Shown piece after piece: positions 10,029-28,497 of a stretch of DNA of 64,000 nucleotides. The DNA is from Limosilactobacillus reuteri. Its GTDB lineage: Bacteria; Bacillota; Bacilli; Lactobacillales; Lactobacillaceae. Location: the NCBI RefSeq assembly GCF_034259105.1, contig NZ_CP139478.1:844001-908000 (forward strand), in the 5' to 3' direction. The position numbers and the translations under genes were made by a program. How positions within the stretch are numbered: position 1 is the stretch's first letter; every line of letters starts with the position of its first letter. The notes under the pieces were generated by a model. The model worked only from the letters and a program-made list of their open reading frames with translations. It did no database searches and had not been told where the DNA came from.

Positions 10029-10074
10029 GGCTCTTCGTCAAGAAGTACTGATGAGAAAATAAAATAATTTTACT

Positions 10075-10110
10075 AAGCAGCTTGTGCCTGGACTTTGGCA
10101 TGAGCTGTTT
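10075..10110 (+). repeat. Hairpin marking the group II intron insertion site in ISL3 copy 1
   Basis: AAGCAGCTTGTGCC and GGCATGAGCTGTTT form a 14-bp stem, including G-U pairs, with the loop TGGACTTT. Five bases (GTTTA) separate it from the first base of the intron. The same hairpin, without an intron, is present in ISL3 copy 2 at about 25740-25775. Confidence 0.8.
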
Positions 10111-10115
10111 GTTTA

Positions 10116-12025
10116 GTGCGCCCGGCATGGGTATTAGCTAGGTGGTGAAAGTCCGCTATGGGCCGTAGTAGTCGGAACCATGAGCTGAGGACAAGGGTGT
10201 CCACCGTGAGGTGGAATCTGAAGGAAGTCTAAGGCAAAGTACTGCATCGATGAACAAGAAGTAGCTATAAGGCTGGAATTAACTGGATAAGGCTGCTAGA
10301 CAAGTTGAAGTCCAATACTACTCGAAGTTGGTCTCAGTAAAGCTAACGATGACATGGTACGAAAGCTAATATTCTTACCCGGGGTGATCTGGCCTACACG
10401 TTTCCGACAAGAGGAATAAGTTTAATTTCCACAGAAACAAGCGGTGCAGTGATGCAGTGTTGAGTAAGCCAGAAGTCAGCCGAGGTCATAGTAGTTTGAA
10501 TAATCAGATGAAGGACTGAACGACAATAACTTGTAACTTATATCGGAGGTGTAATCAGGTGCGACAATCGCAGAAAACAGAACAACAAGCTGACCGCTTG
10601 TCGAGGATAGGTTTGGAAAACCGAAAGTACACAAGGGCGCGTAGTACCGGTTATGGTGAAGGTAAAGGTATGAGTGTCACTATCCAAGACCTGGTCTTGG
10701 ATCGCAATAACCTTAATCAGGCTTATTTGCGAGTTAAGAGAAATAAAGGAGCAGCAGGCGTTGACGATATGACAGTCAATGACCTTCTGCCATATCTCAG
10801 AGAAAATAAGACGGAACTGATCGCTAGTTTGCGTGAGGGCAAGTATAAACCAGCTCCAGTCAAACGGGTAGAAATTCCGAAGCCTAATGGTGGAGTAAGA
10901 AGACTTGGAATACCAACGGTGGTGGACCGAATGGTTCAACAAGCTGTAGCCCAAATTCTTACGCCTATCTTTGAGCGTATTTTCTCTGATAATAGCTTTG
11001 GCTTCCGTCCCCACCGTGGGGCCCATGACGCTATTTCAAAAGTAGTAGATCTTTATAATCAAGGTTATCGAAGAGTTGTCGACTTAGACCTAAAAGCCTA
11101 TTTTGATAACGTTAATCATGACTTGATGATTAAGTATCTCCAACAATATATTGATGACCCATGGACACTAAGACTCATTCGTAAGTTTCTAACTAGCGGA
11201 GTCTTAGACCATGGGCTTTTCGCTAAGAGTGAAAAAGGAACCCCACAAGGAGGGCCATTGTCACCACTACTGGCGAACATCTATCTAAATGAGTTGGACG
11301 AAGAGTTGACTAGACGTGGTCACCACTTTGTGCGCTATGCGGATGATTGTAACATCTATGTTAAAAGTCAACGAGCCGGAGAACGAGTAATGCGAAGCAT
11401 TACCCAGTTTCTAGAAAAGCGCTTGAAAGTTAAAGTGAACCCAGATAAAACCAAAGTCGGTAGCCCGCTACGGTTGAAGTTTCTTGGCTTTTCGTTGGGT
11501 GTAGACCACAATGGGGCCTACGCCCGTCCAGCTAAGCAATCGCAACAACGAGTAAAGAAAGCACTGAAGTTATTAACTAAACGTAATCGTGGAATATCTC
11601 TGACAAGAATGTTTGAAGAAATTCATCGAAAAATGCGTGGGTGGCTTCAGTACTACTCAATTGGGAAACTAACTAACTTTATTCAACGCCTTGACAAGTG
11701 GTTGAGGGTCCGAATAAGGCAGTATATTTGGAAGCAATGGAAAAAGTTTAAAACTAAGGTAACTAACTTACAGAAGTTGGGGCTGTCCCAGCGTGATGCA
11801 TATGTCTTCGCTAGTACCCGAAAGGGCTACTGGCGAACTGCACATAGTAAGACCTTGAGCTATTCTCTAACTAATAGAAAACTGGAACAACTCGGACTTA
11901 TGAATATGTCCAAGACGCTCCAGTCAATTCAATGTGATTAAGTTGTCGAACCGCCGTATACGGAACCGTACGTACGGTGGTGTGAGAGGTCGATAATTGA
12001 ACTAATCAATTATCTCCTACTCGAT
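10116..12025 (+). mobile_element. Group II intron, copy 1 (1910 bp, full length)
   Basis: The boundaries were set by comparison with the uninterrupted ISL3 copy: TGTTTGTTTA joins TTTCTCC once the element is removed. The intron begins GTGCG and ends CGAT, fitting the 5' GUGYG and 3' AY rules. It has a long structured 5' region, a reverse transcriptase/maturase gene, a domain V-like hairpin with arms CCGCCGTAT and GTACGGTGG (11951-11980), and a domain VI-like stem GATAATTGA / TCAATTATC. Insertion directly downstream of a hairpin, and a maturase without an endonuclease domain, resemble bacterial class C introns; the class is inferred. Confidence 0.93.
10559..11941 (+). CDS. ltrA: Group II intron-encoded reverse transcriptase/maturase, copy 1
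   Basis: This 460-residue protein splices its host intron and copies it into DNA at new sites. The RT core shows IPKPNGGVRRLGIPT, SFGFRPHRGAHDAI, the GTPQGGPLSPLLANI block (228-242) and the catalytic YADD at 260-263. The maturase (GIIM) domain follows, with WLQYYSIG and the terminal WRTAHSKTLSYSLTNRKL. No HNH endonuclease domain follows the maturase domain. Translation starts at GTG behind CGGAGG. It differs from copy 2 at only a few residues (for example R57 against Q57, and SQRD against PQHD near residue 407). All key residues are intact. Confidence 0.95.
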   Translation: MRQSQKTEQQADRLSRIGLENRKYTRARSTGYGEGKGMSVTIQDLVLDRNNLNQAYLRVKRNKGAAGVDDMTVNDLLPYLRENKTELIASLREGKYKPAPVKRVEIPKPNGGVRRLGIPTVVDRMVQQAVAQILTPIFERIFSDNSFGFRPHRGAHDAISKVVDLYNQGYRRVVDLDLKAYFDNVNHDLMIKYLQQYIDDPWTLRLIRKFLTSGVLDHGLFAKSEKGTPQGGPLSPLLANIYLNELDEELTRRGHHFVRYADDCNIYVKSQRAGERVMRSITQFLEKRLKVKVNPDKTKVGSPLRLKFLGFSLGVDHNGAYARPAKQSQQRVKKALKLLTKRNRGISLTRMFEEIHRKMRGWLQYYSIGKLTNFIQRLDKWLRVRIRQYIWKQWKKFKTKVTNLQKLGLSQRDAYVFASTRKGYWRTAHSKTLSYSLTNRKLEQLGLMNMSKTLQSIQCD

Positions 12026-13430
12026 TTTCTCCGGTTTATTGCAATGTAGGTATTTGGTAATGCAAGGAGGATTCTAATTCGGAAATTAAAGAAATTACGA
12101 AAGCCATAAGCAGTTCGTTTAATAACTTTAATTTTATTGTTAGTTCCTTCAACGGGACCATTTGTATAGGTATCATATTTAAAACTATTGTAAATTTCTT
12201 GTTTATGTCTGCGAAGAGTACGCTGAACTTTTTGCAGTGCTTGGGGAAGCTGCGTCCATTTAATCGCGAGTAAGTTTTTTAATTCTTTCTTGCTACGATG
12301 AGCAATCACCAGAATTAAGTTTTGATAGTATTCATAAGCCCTTTTTAGTTCATTATCAAAGCTTAGAAGACGATGAATGACTTCCACATCGGTTAATTGA
12401 GCGTAACTAAAGTTACGCCTTGACCAATAATTATCATATTTAAGCTCATTAGCAGGCGTTAGGAGTAATTTCCAAAAGTGCTTAAGTGCACGCCATTTAT
12501 GAATGCCAGCACCGGCACGATTCATTACTTGGATCCTAATTTTGTTAAATGCACGATATGCTTGAGCAACAATATGAAAATGATCAGCGATAATTAAAGC
12601 CTGGGGGAAAAGCTCATGAATCAAATGGCGGTAAGGAGTGTACAAGTCAACCGTTACTGTTTGAACTGCTAAGCGTGCTGAACGGTCATATCGAAGAAAG
12701 TATTTTCGCAGATAGCTATTTTTACGTGACAAGATAATATCAAGCGTCCGCTTATTTTCAATATTCATTAGAATCATACTCATTCCGCTGGGGGCAAAGC
12801 GACCAGACTTAAAATCATCAAAGGCAATATGGCGAGGTAACCAATGATAGTTAGGCTTGAAAACTGATCAAGATTTGTAATGACTCGTCTAATTGTCCAG
12901 TCAGAGACATTTAATTCTTTGGCTAAATCACTTTGTGATTCGTTTTTTGTTAGAAGCATCATTGCCCGTTGTTTTATCGCTAAAGAGATATGATTACGAT
13001 AATGAATATCTTCAACGGCTGCTAATTTAGTAACCACTTCAGGACAAGAAGAAGAAGCTTTACAGATATATTTTTGCTTTTTAATCGACCAGATTGTTGG
13101 CTTAAAGTGAAGCTCTGGTCCCAAGCAATTAACTGTTTTATAGCCATTTTTACACATTAAGTGTCCATATTTTGGGCAATGCATGGGGTAAGTTTGAATA
13201 AGATGGACAATGATTTGATTAGGTTGATCTTCAATTGGGTTATCAAAATTCTTTTCATCTAGTTTGAGGTAAGGATCTTTAATTCCTAAGATAGTTTTGA
13301 TAGAATTGTTCATGAAAGATGGTCCTTTCTTAGCGAAGACGGGGTCCAACCATCTTTCGCTTTTTTATTTTAAATTTTAAACAAATAAAGCCCTGATGTT
13401 AAATCCATCAGTACTTAAAATTGTAAAGCC

Positions 13431-23328: not shown

Positions 23329-23389
23329 AAAGTAAAGAGACATTGAGAGTGGGAAATAACCTCCTCGACAAGGCGGTTGGCTAAGCTAA

Positions 23390-23424
23390 GACGATGATTA
23401 GCACGGCACGGGCTGATTATCGTT
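23390..23424 (+). repeat. Hairpin upstream of the nested group II introns
   Basis: GACGATGATTAGC and GCTGATTATCGTT form a 13-bp stem, with G-U pairs, around a nine-base loop. The old intron began six bases after it and the newer copy seven bases after it, much like the hairpin next to intron copy 1. Confidence 0.75.
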
Positions 23425-23431
23425 CGTACTG

Positions 23432-25341
23432 GTGCGCCCGGCATGGGTATTAGCTAGGTGGTGAAAGTCAACTATGGGTCGTAGTAGTCGGAACCATGAG
23501 CTGAGGACAAGGGTGTCCACCGTGAGGTGGAATCTGAAGGAAGTCTAAGGCAAAGTACTGCATCGATGAACAAGAAGTAGCTATAAGGCTGAAATTAACT
23601 GGATAAGGCTGCTAGACAAGTTGAAGTCCAATACTACTCGAAGTTGGTCTCAGTAAAGCTAACGATGACATGGTACGAAAGCTAATATTCTTACCCGGGG
23701 AGATCTGGCCTACACGTTTCCGACAAGAGGAATAAGTTTAATTTCCACAGAAACAAGCGGTGCAGTGATGCAGTGTTGAGTAAGCCAGAAGTCAGCCGAG
23801 GTCATAGTAGTTTGAATAATCAGATGAAGGACTGAACGACAATAACTTGTAACTTATATCGGAGGTGTAATCAGGTGCGACAATCGCAGAAAACAGAACA
23901 ACAAGCTGACCGCTTGTCGAGGATAGGTTTGGAAAACCGAAAGTACACAAGGGCGCGTAGTACCGGTTATGGTGAAGGTAAAGGTATGAGTGTCACTATC
24001 CAAGACCTGGTCTTGGATCGCAATAACCTTAATCAGGCTTATTTGCAAGTTAAGAGAAATAAAGGAGCAGCAGGCGTTGACGATATGACAGTCAATGACC
24101 TTCTGCCATATCTCAGAGAAAATAAGACGGAACTGATCGCTAGTTTGCGTGAGGGCAAGTATAAACCAGCTCCAGTCAAACGGGTAGAAATTCCGAAGCC
24201 TAATGGTGGAGTAAGAAGACTTGGAATACCAACGGTGGTGGACCGAATGGTTCAACAAGCTGTAGCCCAAATTCTTACGCCTATCTTTGAGCGTATTTTC
24301 TCTGATAATAGCTTTGGCTTCCGTCCCCACCGTGGGGCCCATGACGCTATTTCAAAAGTAGTAGATCTTTATAATCAAGGTTATCGAAGAGTTGTCGACT
24401 TAGACCTAAAAGCCTATTTTGATAACGTTAATCATGACTTGATGATTAAGTATCTCCAACAATATATTGATGACCCATGGACACTAAGACTCATTCGTAA
24501 GTTTCTAACTAGCGGAGTCTTAGACCATGGGCTTTTCGCTAAGAGTGAAAAAGGAACCCCACAAGGAGGGCCATTGTCACCACTACTGGCGAACATCTAT
24601 CTAAATGAGTTGGACGAAGAGTTGACTAGACGTGGTCACCACTTTGTGCGCTATGCGGATGATTGTAACATCTATGTTAAAAGTCAACGAGCCGGAGAAC
24701 GAGTAATGCGAAGCATTACCCAGTTTCTAGAAAAGCGCTTGAAAGTTAAAGTGAACCCAGATAAAACCAAAGTCGGTAGCCCGCTACGGTTGAAGTTTCT
24801 TGGCTTTTCGTTGGGTGTAGACCACAATGGGGCCTACGCCCGTCCAGCTAAGCAATCGCAACAACGAGTAAAGAAAGCACTGAAGTTATTAACTAAACGT
24901 AATCGTGGAATATCTCTGACAAGAATGTTTGAAGAAATTCATCGAAAAATGCGTGGGTGGCTTCAGTACTACTCAATTGGGAAACTAACTAACTTTATTC
25001 AACGCCTTGACAAGTGGTTGAGGGTCCGAATAAGGCAGTATATTTGGAAGCAATGGAAAAAGTTTAAAACTAAGGTAACTAACTTACAGAAGTTGGGGCT
25101 GCCCCAGCATGATGCGTATGTCTTCGCTAGTACCCGAAAGGGCTACTGGCGAACTGCACATAGTAAGACCTTGAGCTATTCTCTAACTAATAGAAAACTG
25201 GAACAACTCGGACTTATGAATATGTCCAAGACGCTCCAGTCAATTCAATGTGATTAAGTTGTCGAACCGCCGTATACGGAACCGTACGTACGGTGGTGTG
25301 AGAGGTCGATAATTGAACTAATCAATTATCTCCTACTCGAT
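23432..25341 (+). mobile_element. Group II intron, copy 2 (1910 bp, full length)
   Basis: This copy is nearly identical to copy 1 and has exactly the same length, from GTGCG to CGAT. The base before it is a G and the bases after it read TGCGCCCGGCATGG, which is the start of a third intron copy lacking its first G. Copy 2 therefore appears to have inserted between nucleotides 1 and 2 of an older intron. Its catalytic domain V-like hairpin and maturase gene are intact. Confidence 0.93.
23875..25257 (+). CDS. ltrA: Group II intron-encoded reverse transcriptase/maturase, copy 2
   Basis: This 460-residue maturase is the near-twin of the copy at 10559. It has the same RT blocks, with YADD at 260-263, and the same C-terminal maturase domain, again with no endonuclease domain. 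It differs at residue 57 (Q instead of R) and around residue 407 (PQHD instead of SQRD). Its GTG start lies behind CGGAGG. With two intact copies, either could support mobility of all related introns in the genome. Confidence 0.95.
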   Translation: MRQSQKTEQQADRLSRIGLENRKYTRARSTGYGEGKGMSVTIQDLVLDRNNLNQAYLQVKRNKGAAGVDDMTVNDLLPYLRENKTELIASLREGKYKPAPVKRVEIPKPNGGVRRLGIPTVVDRMVQQAVAQILTPIFERIFSDNSFGFRPHRGAHDAISKVVDLYNQGYRRVVDLDLKAYFDNVNHDLMIKYLQQYIDDPWTLRLIRKFLTSGVLDHGLFAKSEKGTPQGGPLSPLLANIYLNELDEELTRRGHHFVRYADDCNIYVKSQRAGERVMRSITQFLEKRLKVKVNPDKTKVGSPLRLKFLGFSLGVDHNGAYARPAKQSQQRVKKALKLLTKRNRGISLTRMFEEIHRKMRGWLQYYSIGKLTNFIQRLDKWLRVRIRQYIWKQWKKFKTKVTNLQKLGLPQHDAYVFASTRKGYWRTAHSKTLSYSLTNRKLEQLGLMNMSKTLQSIQCD

Positions 25342-25667
25342 TGCGCCCGGCATGGGTATTAACTAGGTGGTGAAAGACAACTATGGGTCGTAGTAGTCGG
25401 GACCATGAGCCAAGGACAAGGGTGTCCACTGCGGGGTGGAATCTGAAGGAAGTCTAAAGCAAAGTACTGCACCGATGAACAAGAAGTAGCTATAAGGCTG
25501 AAATTATCTGGATGAAACTGCAATTCAAGTTGAAGTCAAATACTACTCGAAGCTAATTTCAGTAAAGCTAACGGTGACATGGTACGAAAGTTAATATTCT
25601 TACCCGGGGAGGCCTGACCTACACGTTTCCGACAAGAGGAAATAAGATAGCTTTCCACAAAGCAGTT
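25342..25667 (+). mobile_element. Truncated older group II intron (5' domain only)
   Basis: The sequence from TGCGCCCGGCATGG onward aligns with the first part of domain I of the two complete introns but has many substitutions, such as GACAACTATGGGTC and ACTGCACCGATG. The similarity ends near TTTCCACAAA. The reverse transcriptase gene and domains V-VI are missing. Its first base is probably the G at 23431, left on the other side of copy 2. It cannot splice. Confidence 0.85.
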
Positions 25668-25683
25668 GAGGCTGGGAGAAAAC
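25667..25683. repeat. Left arm of the hairpin that hosts ISL3 copy 2
   Basis: TGAGGCTGGGAGAAAAC is perfectly complementary to GTTTTCTCCCAGCCTCA at 28480-28496 on the far side of the ISL3/IS30 complex. The rejoined 17-bp stem would act as a two-way terminator between dtd and the convergent kinase gene. Confidence 0.85.
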
Positions 25684-25737
25684 AAAAGTTTCTGGCTCTT
25701 CGTCAAGAAGTACTGATGAGAAAATAAAATAATTTTA

Positions 25738-27105
25738 CTAAGCAGCTTGTGCCTGGACTTTGGCATGAGCTGTTTGTTTATTTCTCCAGTTTATTGCAAT
25801 GTAGGTATTTGGTAATGCAAGGAGGATTCTAATTCGGAAATTAAAGAAATTACGAAAGCCATAAGCAGTTCGTTTAATAACTTTAATTTTATTGTTAGTT
25901 CCTTCAACGGGACCATTTGTATAGGTATCATATTTAAAACTATTGTAAATTTCTTGTTTATGTCTGCGAAGAGTACGCTGAACTTTTTGCAGTGCTTGGG
26001 GAAGCTGCGTCCATTTAATCGCGAGTAAGTTTTTTAATTCTTTCTTACTACGATGAGCAATCACCAGAATTAAGTTTTGATAGTATTCATAAGCTCTTTT
26101 TAGTTCATTATCAAAGCTTAGAAGACGATGAATGACTTCAACATCAGTTAATTGAGCGTAACTAAAGTTACGCCTTGACCAATAATTATCATATTTAAGC
26201 TCATTAGCAGGCGTTAGGAGTAATTTCCAAAAGTGCTTAAGTGCACGCCATTTATGAGTGCCAGCACCGGCACGATTCATTACTTGGATCCTAATTTTGT
26301 TAAATGCACGATATGCTTGAGCAACAATATGAAAATGATCAGCGATAATTAAAGCGTGGGGGAAAAGCTCATGAATCAAATGGCGGTAAGGAGTGTACAA
26401 GTCAACCGTTACTGTTTGAACTGCTAAGCGTGCTGAACGGTCATATCGAAGAAAGTATTTTCGCAGATAGCTATTTTTACGTGACAAGATAATATCAAGC
26501 GTCCGCTTATTTTCAATATTCATTAGAATCATACTCATTCCGCTGGGGGCAAAGCGACCAGACTTAAAATCATCAAAGGCAATATGGCGAGGTAACCAAT
26601 GATAGTTAGGCTTAAAAAACTGATCAAGATTTGTAATGACTCGTCTAATTGTCCAGTCAGAGACATTTAATTCTTTGGCTAAATCACTTTGTGATTCGTT
26701 TTTTGTTAGAAGCATCATTGCCCGTTGTTTTATCGCTAAAGAGATATGATTACGATAATGAATATCTTCAACGGCTGCTAATTTAGTAACCACTTCAGGA
26801 CAAGAAGAAGAAGCTTTACAGATATATTTTTGCTTTTTAATCGACCAGATTGTTGGCTTAAAGTGAAGCTCTGGTCCCAAGCAATTAACTGTTTTATAGC
26901 CATTTTTACACATTAAGTGTCCACATTTTGGGCAATGCATGGGGTAAGTTTGAATAAGATGGACAATGATTTGATTAGGTTGATCTTCAATTGGGTTATC
27001 AAAATTCTTTTCATCTAGTTTGAGGTAAGGATCTTTAATTCCTAAGATAGTTTTGATAGAATTGTTCATGAAAGATGGTCCTTTCTTAGCGAAGACGGGG
27101 TCCAA
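25738..27105 (-). CDS. ISL3-family transposase (intact)
   Basis: The 455-residue transposase has an N-terminal zinc ribbon (CPKCGHLMCKNG with a later Cys pair), a helix-turn-helix (SQSDLAKELNVSDWTIRRVI) and a DDE-type catalytic core, with FDDFKSGRFAPSGMSMI, VTVDLYTPYRHLI, IADHFHIV and the final acidic NGPVEGTNNKIKVIKR block. A ribosome site (AAAGGACC) precedes the ATG. This is the functional reference for the broken copy at 10073-13349. The element's right end has been separated by the IS30 insertion, so mobility of this copy would require mobilising both. Confidence 0.93.
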   Translation of the reverse strand: MDPVFAKKGPSFMNNSIKTILGIKDPYLKLDEKNFDNPIEDQPNQIIVHLIQTYPMHCPKCGHLMCKNGYKTVNCLGPELHFKPTIWSIKKQKYICKASSSCPEVVTKLAAVEDIHYRNHISLAIKQRAMMLLTKNESQSDLAKELNVSDWTIRRVITNLDQFFKPNYHWLPRHIAFDDFKSGRFAPSGMSMILMNIENKRTLDIILSRKNSYLRKYFLRYDRSARLAVQTVTVDLYTPYRHLIHELFPHALIIADHFHIVAQAYRAFNKIRIQVMNRAGAGTHKWRALKHFWKLLLTPANELKYDNYWSRRNFSYAQLTDVEVIHRLLSFDNELKRAYEYYQNLILVIAHRSKKELKNLLAIKWTQLPQALQKVQRTLRRHKQEIYNSFKYDTYTNGPVEGTNNKIKVIKRTAYGFRNFFNFRIRILLALPNTYIAINWRNKQTAHAKVQAQAA

Positions 27106-27149
27106 CCATCTTTCGCTTTTTTATTTTAAATTTTAAACAAATAAAGCCC

Positions 27150-28427
27150 CTAAATTTCAAGAATAAGTTAGCCACTGGACTCAAATAAATAATACTGACC
27201 AATTGATTATTGGTTGATGGAGCTGTGATATCTCTTGGTAGAAGGCCTTACGATAGATATCCATTGACGAATGTCCATTAAACATAGCTCGTGGATAGTG
27301 ATTCATCCAATCATTAGTCGCTATGATCTGAGCACTACTATAGTTATTTATAGCTTCACCTTTGGTAATCTCCTTGCGGAGAAACCGGTTATTGATCTCA
27401 TTGGATCCACGTTCCCAAGGGGAATACGGATCAGCATAGAAAACATGATCGTGAACTTGTGTTAACTCACTAAATTCTGAACCGTTGTCAGAGGTTATTG
27501 TCTTAAAGATGCGATAGTAAGCATCTGTGCCCATTTTCTGGCGTAAATTTATAAAGAACTGATTTACTGCATGCGCAGTTTTACCAGCAATTTTACTCGT
27601 GATATTAACTCGTGAAAGGCGATCAGTCATTACTAGTACAACACTGTCATTACCGTTTTTCTGTCCCTGAACTGTATCTAGTTCCCAATGGCCAATTTCG
27701 GACCGTTGGTCCGCAGTTTGAGGTCGTTGAGCAATATTAGGCCCTAAGCACCTTTTAGCTTGCGGATGAGTTCGATGATGCTTACGTTTAGGTTTTTCAA
27801 AGAGGTCTAAATTGGACGTACGAAGCACACCCTCATTAATCCATTGATATAAAGTTACAACCGACTTTGGGATCAGGGTGCCATCATTCATTAAATCTCG
27901 AGCCTTATAAATAACCGCTTGTGGGGAGTAATGGTGGTCGTCAAACTCACCAAGCATTAGCTGATCAGCTAATCGTAAAAATTGCTTTGAAGAATAATAT
28001 AAGCGACGACGACCAGAATGGCGGTGATGTTCAAGATATGTGGCCTGACCAGCTTCATAACTATAGATGTAGTAAGAATATTCGTAAATCTTACCATTAG
28101 ATTTTTGACGACGAAGTTGGCGGACCGTACCACGGTTGAGCTCGTTATTAATTGTTTGATGATTAACTCCTAATTGGCGACCAATTGCGCGATTGGAAAG
28201 TCCTTGCGACTTTAAAGTCGCAATCATCACACGTTCTTCTTTAGTAAGATGAGCATTCTTTTTATGAGTAGTCAATAAACTAGTAGACATGGTATCATTT
28301 AAGTGCGTCATTTGACGGACATCCTTTCATATAGGTTTGGTTCACTTAATATGATACCTGATGTCACGCCGAATGGCGTTTTTTATTTACCACCAACTGG
28401 GTGGCTAACTTCATTCTATAATCCACC
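27150..28427 (-). mobile_element. IS30-family insertion sequence A, inside ISL3 copy 2
   Basis: The element interrupts ISL3 so that AACAAATAAAGCCC appears on both sides (27136-27149 and 28428-28441) but only once in ISL3 copy 1. This defines the boundaries and a 14-base target duplication. The inner parts of the ends share AAGTTAGCCAC as an inverted repeat; the outermost bases match less well. It encodes one transposase. Its length is 1278 bp. Confidence 0.88.
27181..28311 (-). CDS. IS30-family transposase A
   Basis: This 376-residue IS30-type transposase has an N-terminal helix-turn-helix (LTKEERVMIATLKSQGLSNR, then AIGRQLGVNHQTINNEL) and a DDE integrase core. The catalytic residues lie in HWELDTVQG, ITSDNGSEF and the ERGSNEINNRFLRKEI helix. 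The ATG lies behind AAAGGATG. It shares only family-level similarity with the transposase at 34930, so two different IS30-type elements are present. Confidence 0.93.
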   Translation of the reverse strand: MTHLNDTMSTSLLTTHKKNAHLTKEERVMIATLKSQGLSNRAIGRQLGVNHQTINNELNRGTVRQLRRQKSNGKIYEYSYYIYSYEAGQATYLEHHRHSGRRRLYYSSKQFLRLADQLMLGEFDDHHYSPQAVIYKARDLMNDGTLIPKSVVTLYQWINEGVLRTSNLDLFEKPKRKHHRTHPQAKRCLGPNIAQRPQTADQRSEIGHWELDTVQGQKNGNDSVVLVMTDRLSRVNITSKIAGKTAHAVNQFFINLRQKMGTDAYYRIFKTITSDNGSEFSELTQVHDHVFYADPYSPWERGSNEINNRFLRKEITKGEAINNYSSAQIIATNDWMNHYPRAMFNGHSSMDIYRKAFYQEISQLHQPIINWSVLFI

Positions 28428-28479
28428 AACAAATAAAGCCCTGATGTTAAATCCATCAGTACTTAAAATTGTAAAGCCA

Positions 28480-28496
28480 GTTTTCTCCCAGCCTCA
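28480..28496. terminator. Right arm of the ISL3-hosting hairpin / terminator remnant
   Basis: GTTTTCTCCCAGCCTCA completes the inverted repeat begun at 25667. It ends two bases before the stop codon of the convergent kinase gene, so that gene has lost a compact terminator at its 3' end. Confidence 0.75.
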
Positions 28497-28497
28497 T

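Follow-up and report, generated by a model that had tools for sequence, protein, structure and literature searches.

A group IIC intron nested one base inside the remnant of an older intron in Limosilactobacillus reuteri

Downstream of dtd in the window, the 64,000-nucleotide stretch of Limosilactobacillus reuteri DNA that was analysed, a complete group IIC intron (copy 2) separates the first base of an older intron from the second; of this older intron little more than the first 300 bases are left. We hold it to be quite probable that the newer intron was recruited by a hairpin and reverse-spliced between these two bases, in a register given mainly by base pairing, and that a short tract was later copied into it from the older intron. 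The parts of the locus are as follows, in window positions.

23345 to 23430, plus strand: left part of a dispersed intergenic repeat, uninterrupted in the related genome G037 (locus L030) and elsewhere.
23391 to 23402 and 23412 to 23423, plus strand: internal hairpin of the repeat, followed by TCGTACT, the insertion target (read from the sequence and folded).
23431, plus strand: G1 of the older intron, separated from the remainder by copy 2.
23432 to 25341, plus strand: copy 2, a complete group IIC intron, the inner and younger one.
25342 to 25659, plus strand: remnant, from base 2 to about base 318 of the older intron, the rest missing (90% identity to intron positions 2-318).
25660 to 25693, plus strand: right part of the repeat after a deletion, with the left arm of its split terminal hairpin.
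25694 to 28478, minus strand: ISL3-family element in the terminal hairpin of the repeat (NCBIfam matches; ends by eye).
27181 to 28311: transposase of an IS30-family element that interrupts the ISL3 element (NCBIfam matches).
28479 to 28497, plus strand: right arm of the split terminal hairpin of the repeat (by eye).

Copy 2 is 1910 nt long (GTGCG...CTCGAT) and stands between G 23431 and TGCGCCCGG. The genome that holds it, G000 (2.27 Mb, 3 contigs), gave 29 matches to copy 2 as query. Of these, 27 are full copies, one is a partial copy next to masked sequence and one is the remnant at 25342-25659. All 27 full copies have identical ends, and the ends of copy 2 are therefore fixed by the 26 others. 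One of these, which lies within another ISL3 element, also served to fix the ends, because an intron-free copy of its host element starts at 25694 and gives an unambiguous empty site.

10116 to 12025, plus strand: copy 1, an intron of the same family.

The intron was seen at the same position in two ISL3 copies (10029-12325 and L011), and this transposon may be an additional carrier that spreads it.

The best-matching relative, G037, is 98% identical to G000 over the 102 bases preceding the site, and at the same place downstream of dtd (L030) it has an uninterrupted empty site, CGTACT/TAGACTCGAG...CATAGAAGCAGTTGAGGC, where the slash marks the insertion point. There is no G at this point, and in 22 of 22 repeat copies examined (20 from a longer listing, together with L030 and L035) the base after ACT is T, never G. 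This rules out that the extra G at 23431 is a part of the repeat, and identifies it as a base of the older intron. A single nested insertion thus accounts both for this surplus G before copy 2 and for the G lacking after it, and the junctions at G 23431 and T 25342 agree with the first-pass annotation, in which the newer intron enters behind the first base of the older one. The exact nested junction was found only in G000, that is in 1 of 50 genomes of the genus and 1 of 397 of the family. Of the seven places in the genus scan the other six, in five genomes, matched a looser pattern with different spacers and were rejected, not being intron ends. The older intron alone was not found in the 50 genus genomes (one genome per species), where the junction between repeat and intron occurs once, in G000 itself.

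The repeat (23345-23430, 25660-25693 and 28479-28497) is very roughly 170-200 bp long, with one internal and one terminal hairpin. Eleven other copies were sampled in G000, and many occur in related species. Among 30 dtd loci it is present in this orientation only in G000 and G037, and inverted in L035. When four sources of the repeat were compared with Rfam, the sole match was a T-box below the gathering score in L100, outside the repeat. The ISL3 element in the terminal hairpin has, by eye, an imperfect 8-bp target duplication, the left side of which is one T shorter.

Copy 2 has the group II ribozyme core including domains V-VI (Rfam RF02001, RF01998 and RF00029), and its encoded protein matches only RVT_1 and GIIM in Pfam; an endonuclease domain was not found by Pfam in its 460 aa.

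23613 to 23616, plus strand: EBS1 of copy 2 (TAGA), located by covariation with the 5' exons.
23875 to 25257, plus strand: reverse transcriptase/maturase encoded by copy 2, 460 aa (TIGR04416, 424.9 bits).
25265 to 25341, plus strand: domains V-VI of copy 2 (RF00029, 49.5 bits).

The top sequence match of the protein, putatively of class C, in PDB is the GsI-IIC RT (6ar1, 2.4e-118), its nearest relative among solved structures. Group IIC introns insert at intrinsic terminators, according to passages of a review (PMC4424553), and copy 2 resembles the introns described there in its target hairpin and its short exon pairing, as well as in the RT match and the negative Pfam result for an endonuclease domain. 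Unlike them, it has as its target the internal hairpin of a repeat, by eye without a T tract, and its 3' exon is another intron.

The targets of the family show what normally precedes and follows the intron. A terminator-type hairpin is predicted 0-8 nt upstream of 27 of 27 full copies, with folding energies of -14.6 to -31.5 kcal/mol for the native sequences alone, and at most of these sites a T-rich tail follows the hairpin (by eye). EBS1, located by its covariation with the exons, consists of the four bases following UGC in a loop of domain I; GUAAA from intron position 220 was rejected as EBS1, being conserved across lineages where the loop after UGC covaries with the exons instead. In 15 combinations of EBS1 and IBS1, 46 of 60 pairs are Watson-Crick as compared to a shuffled mean of 27.4, and none of 20000 shuffles reaches 46. 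The set comprises 14 combinations with other EBS1 types and TAGA with its commonest exon TTTA, which was our choice, and kinship between the introns is ignored; L074, L075 and L246, whose EBS1 was unreadable, and introns whose 5' end was missed by the pattern, e.g. L086, are left out. Four combinations pair poorly, with 2 of 4 pairs each (AAAC with TTTA, CAAT with TGTG, GACC with TGTA, and TGAA with ATAA). At the G000 sites 4 of 4 EBS1 pairs are formed at 20 of the 27, 3 of 4 at five, copy 2 included, and 2 of 4 at two. Directly downstream of the intron (+1), 26 of 27 ordinary sites have T and the remaining one has C; G was seen at none. The exons are thus recognised by a short EBS1-IBS1 pairing together with the +1 (IBS3) base, the partner of which, EBS3, is placed at a candidate position.

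This pattern offers an explanation of the one-base shift. The target stretch 3' of the hairpin, TACTGTGCG, holds both the observed register, ACTG/T before insertion, and the exact site of the older intron, TACT/G. In the former, EBS1 UAGA makes three contiguous pairs (C-G, U-A and a G.U wobble) with T at +1; in the latter there is one EBS1 pair, and G at +1. The combination of three contiguous pairs with the T is unique to the observed register between -8 and +8; the register at -5 has three non-contiguous pairs and a T at +1. With 3 of 4 pairs, one of them a wobble, copy 2 is more weakly paired than 20 of the 27 sites. The shift is therefore accounted for by better EBS1 pairing and the T at +1 one base inside the older intron, contrary to the earlier proposal that the hairpin, and not the exon sequence, fixes the insertion point.

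It is still conceivable, at rather long odds, that the hairpin alone fixes the position, and that the one-base offset reflects looseness in measuring from it. The spacing between hairpin and copy 2 is 7 nt, within the range of 0-8 nt in the 27 full copies, and the exon sequences do vary. Such a view leaves the nearly constant T at +1 and the covariation of EBS1 with IBS1 unaccounted for, and the registers in which the introns landed in G000 and in a second genome, G664, are the ones favoured by pairing (one other register ties in G664). The role of the hairpin is probably to recruit the intron to the vicinity, and the comparison suggests that base pairing, not the distance from the hairpin, sets the register in which it lands.

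Another explanation is that the newer intron entered exactly at the 5' edge of the older one, and that nesting is only mimicked by two later one-base changes, a G added before copy 2 and a G deleted after it. Exact head-to-tail stacks do exist in Peribacillus, in the genome G464 and in a Bacillota MAG (L227). Here, however, GTGCG would have to be restored by chance through two indels independent of each other, and the insertion would have taken place with 1 of 4 EBS1 pairs and a G at +1, which is seen at 0 of 27 ordinary sites. We regard it as very improbable.

The preferred course, nesting by reverse splicing, would be the following. An older group IIC intron entered beside the internal hairpin of the repeat downstream of dtd. 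Copy 2, from a multiplied IIC family, would later have been recruited to the same hairpin and have entered the older intron by reverse splicing behind its first base, taking its register mainly from the pairing of EBS1 UAGA with ACUG and from the T (IBS3) of the 3' exon. A deletion, either before or after the nesting, would have removed all of the older intron beyond about base 318, and after the nesting a short tract of the remnant would have been copied into copy 2.

The older intron is recognisable by its domain I, which matches Rfam RF02001 at 25425-25599 with 129.3 bits; RF01998 and RF00029, both matched in copy 2, were not matched in the remnant, and no further pieces of a diverged copy were found in G000 with copy 2 as query. 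The description of a third intron, diverged by about 10% and truncated at its 3' end, is borne out. Its end had been set eight bases too far, at 25667; the real end is 25659, since 25660-25693 belong to the surrounding repeat, and the deletion that cut the intron there also took 60 bases of the repeat, as counted on L030. At the EBS1 position the remnant has AATT (25522-25525), which makes just 2 of 4 pairs with its exon TACT. In a tree of the first 300 intron bases (29 rows, with the bootstrap not settled) it sits on a branch of 0.089 and is 91.0% identical to copy 2. By its sequence it is a separate lineage, placed in an open fork of the genus copies.

Copy 2 was also said to have destroyed the 5' splice site of the older intron. 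G1 is indeed cut off from the rest, but the point is moot, since nothing beyond about base 318 is left, and with domains V-VI gone the older intron cannot splice in any case. One group II intron is nested in another here (G 23431, copy 2, TGCG from 25342, with the empty site for comparison), and the outer one has lost the parts that splicing needs, so the nest is a relic of a stacked insertion and no functional twintron. That nested bacterial introns are already known, as the first reading had stated, is confirmed by passages on the group II twintrons of Thermosynechococcus elongatus (PMC2882425, PMC4424553) and Trichodesmium (PMC4649490). Twintrons are likewise reported, in the parts of the literature covered, for the archaeon Methanosarcina acetivorans (PMC2882425, PMC4424553), together with repeated homing of introns into introns (PMC2882425, PMC4424553, PMC4649490). 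Copy 2 resembles all these in being a group II intron inside another. The inner introns of T. elongatus are described in the same passages as occupying a fixed site within the outer ORF (PMC2882425), whereas the host of copy 2 is a 3'-truncated group IIC intron, entered between its first two bases. According to a passage of PMC8919778, the outer intron of nested pairs is missed by the intron-finding program used there.

A comparison of copy 2 with the 25 other full copies that were aligned, and with L027, showed five private bases, 39A, 40A, 48T, 616A and 1685G. At the first three of these positions copy 2 has the bases of the remnant. Taken singly, 40A and 48T each occur elsewhere, and 39A only in copy 2 and the remnant; the signature CAACTATGGGTCG was found only in these two and in none of 49 other genomes of the genus. 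An L060-like copy (in G037) was considered as donor of A40 and rejected, being 99.06% identical to copy 2 over positions 1-1817, below the full chromosomal copies of G000. The three-base signature suggests a later gene conversion from the remnant, after the nesting.

23470 to 23479, plus strand: shortest likely gene-conversion tract, intron positions 39-48 with A39, A40 and T48 (base comparison).

The tract is at most 38-60, because the remnant's bases at 37 and 61 are missing from copy 2. Wrong polishing of the assembly may alternatively be the source of the three bases. If the stem is read correctly by eye, A39 faces G29 in a short stem of domain I, and copy 2 may be weakened by it.

The same three bases indicate that recombination or wrong polishing has touched the 5' end of copy 2, and with 27 full copies and one partial in the genome one can ask whether the whole arrangement arose without reverse splicing, from homologous recombination between near-identical copies or from their misassembly. 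Against this, the flanks (dtd and a fructosamine kinase) continue as in L030 of G037, the chromosome is one contig of 2.07 Mb, and recombination leaves the split G unexplained. There is thus only a slight chance that it is correct, and we retain insertion by reverse splicing.

Stacked group IIC introns occur elsewhere too. In a class scan of 398 genomes the junction pattern was found at 9 places in 7 genomes, and five are real stacks, namely the one in G000, one in G664 and three in G464; two of the five stacks now known in G464 came from a further search. The four other places were discarded, L275 and L279 as chance matches and L276 and L278 as true intron 3' ends followed by other sequence. 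None of seven viral contigs with the pattern was a stack (by eye). In a contig scan, among the matches listed, 116 of 117 stretches do not have CCTACTCGAT before the junction and are therefore not stacks. The exception, L227 in the Bacillota MAG JASKKP010000029.1, is an exact stack in which the lower intron is a short remnant and the upper one is cut by the contig end. On plasmid NZ_CP085396.1 of Peribacillus frigoritolerans two introns, 99.4% identical, lie end to end with offset 0. All of these are like the nest in G000 in that a second IIC intron sits at the place of the first, which is short in the MAG; in several of the other stacks both introns are complete. Their offsets are 0, -1 or a GT spacer, as compared to one base inside in G000. 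Outside G000 we assume that the upper intron is the newer one. Among the titles, abstract openings and text passages that were met, none reports stacked group IIC introns.

The bases at these junctions differ between lineages. In G664, where 23 intron 3' ends were found, T is at +1 in 22 of 22 examined, the stack included; the two stacked introns are identical over 1885 bases, and the offset is -1 (TTTT/T, 4 of 4 pairs), one register further upstream pairing equally well. The 15 intron 3' ends of G464 are five stack junctions, all with G at +1, and ten ordinary ones with G at 5, T at 4 and A at 1. In four of its five stacks the offset is readable, 0 three times and a GT spacer once, and at the latter, equally paired registers with T were available and G was used nonetheless. 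In the fifth, L323, the newer intron may have gone in behind base 2. At the candidate EBS3 position, which follows GTA, copy 2 has A, the stacked introns of G664 have G and G464 has U, which would fit T, T and G at +1, respectively, in what are three lineages only; the U of G464 leaves the T at 4 of 10 ordinary sites unexplained. The Peribacillus stack has 4 of 4 pairs, with EBS1 read by analogy, and contradicts the rule, having G at +1 though its GTA(A) motif predicts T.

It is a tentative idea, which we rate at somewhat below even chances, that stacking at one hairpin is a recurrent habit of group IIC introns and that the preferred +1 base of a lineage (EBS3) decides the register of stacking. 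If so, lineages that require T would land one base upstream of, or one base inside, a resident intron, which starts with GU, and those that accept G would join it without any offset. The resident intron is split in the inside register alone, and the guide pairing would then decide whether the predecessor is decapitated. The nest in G000 is a natural experiment, at the resolution of one base, on how the landing site of hairpin-seeking introns is determined. It suggests that such introns can accumulate at one place, where they may overwrite earlier arrivals and exchange sequence with what remains of them.

Some further arrangements were observed in the same genomes. At L320 of G464 (C1:1241600-1250400) three group IIC introns are stacked head to tail, the first two joined via GT. 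In the second of two stacked IIC introns at L287 (G464:C1:3082000-3089500), intron position 1096 is followed by an insert of about 1.9 kb, which encodes the RT of a different group II intron (427 aa, TIGR04416 438 bits), a nest atop a stack. G664 (L326 and others) has, alongside full copies, group IIC introns of about 640 nt without the ORF region, and of the seven such short introns that have EBS1 TAAA and a readable 5' end, six are preceded by an exon ending in TTTA.
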